Source: Stygiobacter sp. RIFOXYC2_FULL_38_25
GTDB taxonomy: Bacteria > Bacteroidota > Ignavibacteria > Ignavibacteriales > Melioribacteraceae
DNA length: 64,000 nucleotides
Assembly (NCBI GenBank): GCA_001803165.1
Contig: MHAZ01000021.1
Coordinates: 310,001 to 374,000 of the forward strand
Direction: 5' to 3'
Shown piece after piece: positions 45,063-47,792 of this stretch (its first letter is position 1; each line of letters starts with the position of its first letter). A program made the position numbers and the translations under genes. Below the pieces are notes generated by a model. That model did not search any database and was not told the origin of the DNA. It was given only the letters and a program-made list of their open reading frames with translations.

Positions 45063-46697
45063 TCAAAAGATATACCCGATGGAAATATTCCATGAGGTAA
45101 AATTACTCAGTGTGCCCTTGAATGCCGATTGAACACGTAACCCAGATTCATGTCTCAATTCAAACCCGGCATATACATCATTTGTAGCGTTCAAGTAAGA
45201 TGATCTATAGGATTCTGATTGATAAGTATCGGCATTGCTCATAGGCAGCTTACTTGTGTAAACACTTTCAACGGGTGAATAGGTGTTTCTTCTCCAGTAC
45301 TCCAACTTATAATAATAATTTAGGCCGCCATATACCGAAAACCAATGTACCGGTGTGAAGTTTAAATATATTGGAAATTGAACCGAAGCTGACCATACCT
45401 TAAAATCATAGATATTGGATATTCCCGGGGTATAGTAAGAAAAATAGTCGGAATAATATTCACTAAATGAATTAGAGTAGGGATATATATTTTTAAATGC
45501 ATAATAACCCACATGAGGATTTATACCAACAATAAAATCGAGATCAATAAGTTTGCCTTTCACAAGATATCCAAACGATATTGTGGCTCCGTAGTTAATT
45601 ACATTTTCGTTTTGTGAAAGCAATTTGTCTGTTGTGTCGTTCGCAGTATATGTAGCATTTGTTTTAACAGTATAGAGACCTTGCGAGAACTGGTTATATT
45701 TTATGTTGCCAGTTGAACGGTATAAATTAGTTGACAGAAAGTAATGATCGTTCGATGTTATTATATCTGCCTTATGTTGATAATAACCGTTTATTCCAAA
45801 CGTTATTGGGCTATGGTCAATATATTTATTACCAACATTTGATTGGCTTCTAATATTTATACTTGACGAGTTTCGCATTACTTCTAATTTTCCGAAATCA
45901 AAAGATATTTCTGAATTTAGTATGTCTTTTTCTACCGTAATACCAGTAATTAAGTCCCAATCTTCAGCAGCAAGTGCATACTCAAAACCCGCAACAAAAT
46001 TTGATTTTTTTTCAAGTATCCTAACCTTTTGGGAGTATATTTCATTTCTGTCGCCATAACTATCCGGGGGAGTATATTTATTCGATGCTTTTGAACTATT
46101 TTCATTTCTTTCATAGGGAAAAATCAACGCATATATCCCAAGGGAAAAGAATTTATCATTTAATTTACCAACCTTAGAAATTTTTAAAGAACTTAACGAC
46201 TGGGATAAATCACTTGTGTAATCGCTAGTACTATTTGCTAGCTGAACATAATTATCAGAAAATGAACGCCCGTTTTTAGATTGCTCGATTTTGCTTTTAA
46301 GAGCATTATTGGAAATTTGCATTAGCCATTTCGACCCGTTAATATCCAGAAGTGTGGCAACAGAAATGGCTGATCCGGAATAATTCAAAAATTGGTAATG
46401 TGGATTTTCGACGTAATAATTATTTCCGTATGATAATTGGGGCTTATTAATCTCCAAAGGAGAATTTGAACTCGGTAAATAATTTGCATAAATAAATTTT
46501 TTCGAATAGGCAGCGCCTCTTGCAGGATTAAATAATACTGCAACAGAAGTATCTTGAGAAAAAATGAGAAATGTGTTGGGTAACCCCCGGGAATTTGCAA
46601 GCATATTTCTATCAAAAGATATTGGATAATCCTGCGCCTTAAGATCACATAATAATGTAAGGAAAGCGAAAAGTAGAATTCGCAGATTAAGTTTCAT
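45063..46697 (-). CDS. Outer-membrane beta-barrel protein paired with SprA-like lipoprotein
   Basis: A signal peptide (about 1-21, LLCDLKAQ) precedes a sequence rich in amphipathic strands. The N-terminus has SVAVLFNPARGAAYSKKFIY, recalling the NPA motif of FadL/PorV-type barrels. The end is SWNISIGYIF, with a terminal Phe as usual for BAM substrates. It is 544 residues, about 16-20 strands. It starts 37 bp after the stop of the SprA-like lipoprotein gene. The gene is visibly AT-rich. Pairing with a SprA-like domain is suggestive of an outer-membrane complex, but the barrel family is not identified. Confidence 0.72.
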   Translation of the reverse strand: MKLNLRILLFAFLTLLCDLKAQDYPISFDRNMLANSRGLPNTFLIFSQDTSVAVLFNPARGAAYSKKFIYANYLPSSNSPLEINKPQLSYGNNYYVENPHYQFLNYSGSAISVATLLDINGSKWLMQISNNALKSKIEQSKNGRSFSDNYVQLANSTSDYTSDLSQSLSSLKISKVGKLNDKFFSLGIYALIFPYERNENSSKASNKYTPPDSYGDRNEIYSQKVRILEKKSNFVAGFEYALAAEDWDLITGITVEKDILNSEISFDFGKLEVMRNSSSINIRSQSNVGNKYIDHSPITFGINGYYQHKADIITSNDHYFLSTNLYRSTGNIKYNQFSQGLYTVKTNATYTANDTTDKLLSQNENVINYGATISFGYLVKGKLIDLDFIVGINPHVGYYAFKNIYPYSNSFSEYYSDYFSYYTPGISNIYDFKVWSASVQFPIYLNFTPVHWFSVYGGLNYYYKLEYWRRNTYSPVESVYTSKLPMSNADTYQSESYRSSYLNATNDVYAGFELRHESGLRVQSAFKGTLSNFTSWNISIGYIF

Positions 46698-46733
46698 TAT
46701 AGCTCCACTAAAATAATTATTGCCTGTGTTGTG

Positions 46734-47792
46734 TTAAAATTTTGTAAGGTGATTACCAGCAACTTTGTATTTGCACCTAATAAAAAAACGATTAGTTTGA
46801 GATTGAACCTGATATTTTGCCGAGTTATAAATCTTATTGTTTTTATATGTAATTGGTAGTTCAGCAGGAAGATCCTTTCCGAACGGTTCCAAAGCGGGAA
46901 AAATAATATCTCCGGTTTCGGGGAAAAATGTTTTTCCGGGAAGAAAATCAAATTTCCCGTCAGGCTCGCTGCTTGTATAAGTTTCATCTGTGAGGTCAAC
47001 TCCAAACAGAGTATTTAGCGCTACCTTTTTATTTTCTATAGTTATTTCATCAACCATTTTCTCATCTTTTAGCATACATATGTTTATCTCTAAATCACCC
47101 GGCTCAAAGGTATTTATTGGTAATCTATATATATTTTTTAGTCGCTTGTTCCACAAGCTCTTGTCGCTAGAATTAATATCGTAATCTTTTACCAGCTTAA
47201 GAACTAATCTCTCTTCTGAAGGAAGATTTATATCAGAAATAAAGTCTCCGTACTGAATATCATCTTGATTACTTGATGAAGGACCTTCTATTGTATAACT
47301 AACTGCAACTAGGCGTGTATCTTCAAGTGGATTAATAAACGATATTAAACCAACATCCCGATTAATTATATAATCATTATCTTCTTCAAGCATGATACAT
47401 CTACGATCAAGATCCTGCTTGCCGGGAATTGTGTTTGAAAAAATTTCTTTTTCCGCTTTGTACCCATCCTTTTCTCTAGCCTTCAAATCAACAAATGAAT
47501 TAGCTTTTCTCTCATCTGGAGATAATAGACCCGTATGAGAACGCCATACCTCAATTTTCTTTATTCTATAATAAGATATTAAATAAGGGACGGCATTGCG
47601 GTAGTACTTACTGAAAATGTTTAAGCTATTTCGATTTGCATAAATTGTATCAACGAAAAAGTGGTTGTCTGAGTAATCCCAAGCTGGAATTTCGAAATAA
47701 AGACAGTTCTCGAAAGGAGAACTTGTTAAACTATCTTCTTCACAGCCCATAAATAAAACTGAAAGCAACAATATTAACGACCACTTTTTCAT
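46734..47792 (-). CDS. Lipoprotein containing a free-standing SprA-like (T9SS translocon) domain
   Basis: The lipobox is LFMGC (Cys 17). The rest, 335 residues, follows the extracellular repeat unit of the T9SS outer-membrane protein SprA as I know it. Landmarks in order are IKKIEVWRSHTGLLSP, EDNDYIINRDVGLISFINPL, LVAVSYTIEG, LWNKRLKNIYRLPINTFEPG, and DGKFDFLPGKTFFPETGDII followed by FPALEPFGKDL. It ends with NRFFIRCKYKV. SprA itself is about 2,400 residues and includes the 36-strand barrel; here one such region stands alone as a lipoprotein. It is AT-rich. Homology is from memory and needs a profile search. Confidence 0.72.
   Translation of the reverse strand: MKKWSLILLLSVLFMGCEEDSLTSSPFENCLYFEIPAWDYSDNHFFVDTIYANRNSLNIFSKYYRNAVPYLISYYRIKKIEVWRSHTGLLSPDERKANSFVDLKAREKDGYKAEKEIFSNTIPGKQDLDRRCIMLEEDNDYIINRDVGLISFINPLEDTRLVAVSYTIEGPSSSNQDDIQYGDFISDINLPSEERLVLKLVKDYDINSSDKSLWNKRLKNIYRLPINTFEPGDLEINICMLKDEKMVDEITIENKKVALNTLFGVDLTDETYTSSEPDGKFDFLPGKTFFPETGDIIFPALEPFGKDLPAELPITYKNNKIYNSAKYQVQSQTNRFFIRCKYKVAGNHLTKF

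Follow-up and report, generated by a model that had tools for sequence, protein, structure and literature searches.

The 352-residue lipoprotein encoded in the window (the whole 64,000-nucleotide stretch of Stygiobacter sp. RIFOXYC2_FULL_38_25 contig MHAZ01000021.1 that was analyzed) is, by sequence comparison, a single SprA module of ~310 amino acids in free form, present beside a complete SprA in the same genome. SprA (Sov) is the outer-membrane translocon of the T9SS, a giant single polypeptide that forms a 36-strand barrel. The features of the lipoprotein gene and of its neighbor are given in Table 1; both open reading frames (ORFs) are as described in the first-pass annotation of this DNA.

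Table 1. Features of the free-module locus, in window coordinates.
Feature	Position	Strand	Basis
544-aa protein with signal peptide and aromatic C-terminal residue, barrel-like by sequence	45063..46697	-	ORF, sequence
352-aa free-standing SprA-module lipoprotein	46734..47792	-	TIGR04189 match, identity to own SprA, match of 22-module profile to 6h3i_A
Lipoprotein signal peptide and lipobox (LFMGC, Cys17, then EED)	47742..47792	-	Sequence
SprA module proper (residues 33-344)	46761..47696	-	Alignment to own SprA and F. johnsoniae SprA

All four SprA landmarks that had been noticed at first pass (NDYIINRDVGLISFINPL, NIYRL, DGKFDFLPG and FPALEPFG) were located in the lipoprotein, and the kinship to SprA proposed at that stage is borne out by profile searches. 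The NCBIfam model TIGR04189 (surface_SprA) matches residues 120-346 at profile positions 359-593 of 2319 and none of its barrel part is matched (E = 8.3e-32, 109.5 bits; the whole-protein cut-off is 200 bits, and a score below it is expected of a fragment). The SprA of the same genome (2390 aa) aligns to lipoprotein residues 33-344 with 39% identity (E = 5.5e-70). When 22 modules were combined into a profile, it retrieved the SprA chain of PDB 6h3i/6h3j (E = 3.9e-33), the entries that had been proposed for a check, and aligned to F. johnsoniae SprA strongly over residues 395-685 and weakly over residues 259-330; phmmer with the lipoprotein as a single sequence retrieved no SprA from the PDB up to E = 10. 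There is no Pfam match to the lipoprotein, and the type A cargo C-terminal sorting domain (TIGR04183, PF18962) is absent from it up to E = 10. The AlphaFold model (input including one distant relative) has a pLDDT of 33.6 and is unusable.

By homology the lipoprotein belongs with the SprA module (F. johnsoniae residues 259-685) and falls outside the definition of a SprA/Sov translocon (TIGR04189; PDB 6H3I, 6H3J). While it corresponds to one module of that protein, with SprA-conserved positions largely kept across the free copies (see below), it differs in length (352 vs. 2390 aa), in having neither the barrel nor the N- or C-terminal regions, in carrying a lipid anchor and in being encoded by a separate gene.

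The full-length sprA that the first-pass annotation had suggested looking for resides on another contig (TIGR04189, 1029 bits). The Pfam family SprA_N covers residues 1170-1599 of this protein, i.e., a region outside the module. Read by eye, a short-turn hairpin (KMGPF) leads into the module, which is followed by a domain of ~70 residues and then by further barrel-like strands. The landmarks had been assigned to a repeated region of SprA; in the SprA stretches examined the module is instead single-copy, with the exception of a 2605-aa SprA frame containing two module copies (G314, contig C119, L145). Because the SprA N terminus is periplasmic, as stated in the excerpted text of PMC10994853, and the module comes after a short-turn hairpin, the module would lie on the outer face of SprA, where it is probably part of the pore-capping region. 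According to the same paper, the SprA cap assists CTD binding in the SprA pore, and the CTD surface buried against SprA amounts to ~1,000 square angstroms (PMC10994853).

The lipoprotein gene is followed, 36 bases downstream, by the gene for the 544-residue protein that had been called an outer-membrane barrel. The frame itself is present, but its barrel nature is read from sequence features, as the protein has no Pfam or NCBIfam match and no credible PDB match; an AlphaFold model of the protein alone is unusable (pLDDT 30.4). Three distant homologues (21-31% identity) were found in a sample of 391 genomes of the class. The four family members known here have lengths of about 520-570 aa, an N-terminal motif like DTATQILFNPARAA and no credible library match. 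This motif is NPA-like and by eye resembles that of PorV, but a PorV relationship was rejected, with NF033709 unmatched and an hhalign comparison to 12 PorV-family proteins of the same genome giving a probability of 9.7%, in a different stretch.

The first-pass annotation had treated the lipoprotein and the barrel as a pair, and had named as the contrary outcome that homologues of the lipoprotein never occur next to a barrel gene. For the 544-aa protein this is what we observe: a homologue is encoded at 0 of the 26 other free-module loci, and its three homologues have unrelated genes around them, the 14, 13 and 4.6 kb examined containing no SprA module. The adjacency in the window is thus no evidence for a pair, and the 544-aa protein is not supported as a conserved part of the lipoprotein system. 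At one further free-module locus (G436), an unrelated gene for a small barrel-like protein of 235 aa, recognized by eye, adjoins the module. A split or reduced translocon assembled from the lipoprotein and the 544-aa protein, as had been suggested, would fit two genes placed so closely on one strand; given the complete SprA in this genome and the separate distribution of the two families, we consider it very improbable.

A second protein with similarity to SprA is encoded on contig C16 of the same genome (1150 aa, L039:4705-8157). It matches positions 599-685 of the SprA profile (E = 6e-8), has no Pfam family and shares the domain that comes after the free module in SprA. The possibility that it is a second part of a split SprA was considered, and was abandoned in view of the complete SprA in this genome.

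Free-standing SprA modules are encoded by at least 28 full-length genes in 25 genomes. Seven of these genes come from the order, where 7 of 164 genomes have one each, and the remaining 21 are spread over 18 further genomes of the class (families coded f8, f14, f20, f21 and f30). The sets searched comprised 58 relatives, 391 genomes of the class (a sample), 164 of the order, 395 of the phylum (a sample) and 80 chosen genomes; copy counts are lower bounds, being made among the matches listed and, in the larger searches, from few scored candidates per genome. No short-frame copy from outside the class occurs among the matches listed for the phylum sample, or in nine genomes with multiple matches that were searched again. 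Every one of the 25 genomes also holds a separate SprA frame (1032 to 2399 aa, some perhaps shortened by contig ends). Since most genomes yielded no copy (7/164 in the order did), the free module is dispensable for the T9SS.

A lipobox was detected in all 28 free copies by regular expression, and its cysteine is invariant in the 9 copies that were aligned. An acidic residue is present at positions +2 to +5 in 26/28 free copies, vs. 15/37 other lipoprotein-like ORFs, a comparison set that was also drawn by regular expression and includes some false positives. This acidic N terminus is the basis in the free copies themselves for suggesting that they are surface-exposed. In the excerpted text of PMC5080379, the lipoprotein export signal (LES) of Capnocytophaga, Bacteroides and Flavobacterium is given as K-(D/E)2 or Q-A-(D/E)2; the free copies are like LES surface lipoproteins in having acidic residues after the lipobox, but are unlike them in that this particular form, as the excerpt gives it, is not general among them.

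Some genomes have unusual copy arrangements. G166 encodes a tandem pair of free-module lipoproteins about 80 bases apart (L174:6988-9119), and the nearest SprA of both copies is that of G166 itself. In G275, a decayed free-module gene (L188:5881-6222) lies in the neighborhood that surrounds the full-length copies in its relatives G246, G255 and G340. Two genomes of family f10 (G112 and G181) have two long SprA frames each (2328-2337 aa), for which contamination is possible.

For phylogenetic placement, we constructed a tree in which the 28 free copies were combined with 54 SprA modules, the latter hand-picked from 79 distinct modules to spread over families. The free copies fall in several places, together with SprA modules of their own family (f8, f20, f14, f21/f30 and the order), although some of these groupings are not well supported (e.g., f20, 90/69; f14, 91/90). 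The label free vs. SprA changes 8 times on the best tree, with at least 5 changes forced by well-supported branches. A single clade for all 28 free copies is rejected (472 log units worse, AU test, p = 2e-8), as are single clades for the 15 copies outside f8 (p = 7e-6) and for the order plus f21/f30 (p = 9e-6), two groups that were defined after the tree was known. The seven copies of the order form one clade with modest support (81/80). A single f8 clade is not rejected (p = 0.10), so that f8 may have one or several origins. In an early tree with 4 free copies these formed one clade (93/98), a grouping that was lost when 28 copies were included. The split is unlikely to stem from long-branch attraction, which would pull the free copies together.

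Free copies thus apparently arose from SprA at about five or more points in the tree, or else have one origin followed by gene conversion. In the latter case, one old free copy would have been converted repeatedly by the local SprA, which would likewise make free copies resemble the SprA of their own genome. We regard this as a rather unlikely account of the origin: the five groups have no common gene neighborhood in neighborhood clustering, and the single clade is strongly rejected, though conversion of the whole module could produce that rejection.

The SprA of the same genome is in the compared set for 11 of the 28 free copies and is the nearest SprA in 9 of them, the exceptions being the window copy (G000) and G308. 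The window copy has 36% identity to its own SprA and 39% to that of a congener in this comparison, and it is therefore probably old. The 9/11 pattern would fit a partner matched to the local SprA, i.e., a regulator or substitute of SprA in which the lipoprotein sits on SprA, Plug or a carrier, where it shuts or biases the lateral opening. Recent birth of the copies alone gives the same pattern, and SprA already has the module; such a role is in our view unlikely.

Purifying selection acts on the free copies in the pairs tested, with dN/dS of 0.09-0.19 in 6 of 7 pairs, values that are rough as dS is ≥1.05 in all pairs and is saturated in the seventh. Of the 59 positions conserved in SprA (at least 80% of sequences), 52 are retained in the free copies (at least 40% of copies); four of the other seven positions (K, K, G, G) sit in the linker to the barrel. 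That the free modules are functionless by-products of SprA duplication would agree with their sporadic presence and with the one decayed copy in G275, but it is hard to reconcile with 28 full-length frames that all carry a lipobox, with the selection measured and with the recurrence of the architecture, and we give it very little credence.

The genes beside the free modules were examined for T9SS cargo. Counts exclude ORFs of less than 100 aa and cover 50 of the 54 possible adjacent genes, as some contigs end. In f8, 9 of the 23 adjacent genes encode a type A CTD. These genes are distributed over 7 of the 12 loci, and all nine score over the TIGR04183 cut-off. This exceeds both the frequency in control stretches (21/296 ORFs, in 20 stretches from 7 of the 10 copy-bearing f8 genomes; Fisher test, p = 6e-5) and that among genes farther away at the same loci (10/83, p = 0.005), with p values that overstate the case because of dependence among the f8 loci (G192, G261, G175a and G175b form one clade, and G175a and G261 have neighbors in common). 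The link to cargo is absent outside f8, where 1 of 27 adjacent genes was called as cargo by a custom profile (G356); this call, for a 1366-aa protein, has no support from TIGR04183 or PF18962. At the window locus no cargo gene lies beside the lipoprotein gene.

A rival reading is a decoy role. Agents for which SprA is the receptor, such as phages, bacteriocins or predators, would be presented with its outer face by the free module, and the cell would thereby be protected. Repeated descent from SprA, patchy presence, the tandem pair in G166 and the decayed gene in G275 fit a gene that undergoes turnover, and retention of SprA-conserved positions fits mimicry. The dN/dS values give no whole-gene sign of diversifying selection, however, a decoy does not predict the cargo neighbors in f8, and SprA is not named as a receptor in the titles and abstract openings surveyed; we therefore hold this role to be improbable.

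The explanation we prefer, tentatively and at a little under an even chance, is that the lipoprotein is a lipid-anchored T9SS accessory of the outer membrane, probably on the cell surface, that binds a partner of the SprA module. As the module in SprA would face outward, the free copy would probably be exported to the surface and could there bind whatever the SprA module binds. The likeliest partner would be type A cargo, through its C-terminal signal, or the carrier of that cargo, in which case the free copy would give T9SS cargo an additional place to dock or be handed over outside the translocon. The cargo-adapter reading raised by the first-pass annotation thus stays viable. A stronger version, which we put forward with distinctly less confidence, is that the capping module of SprA, repeatedly released as a surface lipoprotein, works in trans as a cargo receptor, which would mark the module as the autonomous cargo-recognition part of SprA.

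The place and task proposed here, on the cell surface and on the cargo side of the T9SS, resemble those of PorV, PorU, PorZ and PorQ (cargo carriers and surface-attachment proteins), while the lipoprotein matches none of the library models for these proteins. Possible T9SS carriers are many in the genome of the window, with 26 matches to the PorV-family model NF033709, 14 of them over the cut-off and a few in common frames. The component list of the T9SS, as excerpted from PMC7463736, includes no such lipoprotein, and no report of a free-standing SprA module was found in the titles and abstract openings listed from the open-licence PMC literature. The apparently repeated origin of the free-module lipoprotein points to a so far undescribed T9SS helper. 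With it, a likely accessory is added to a secretion system whose transfer of cargo to the surface is not fully understood. That the architecture recurs in about five or more lineages makes it a natural experiment on where SprA can be cut and, if the module acts alone, cargo recognition could be tested directly on a small fragment of this translocon of 2400 residues.
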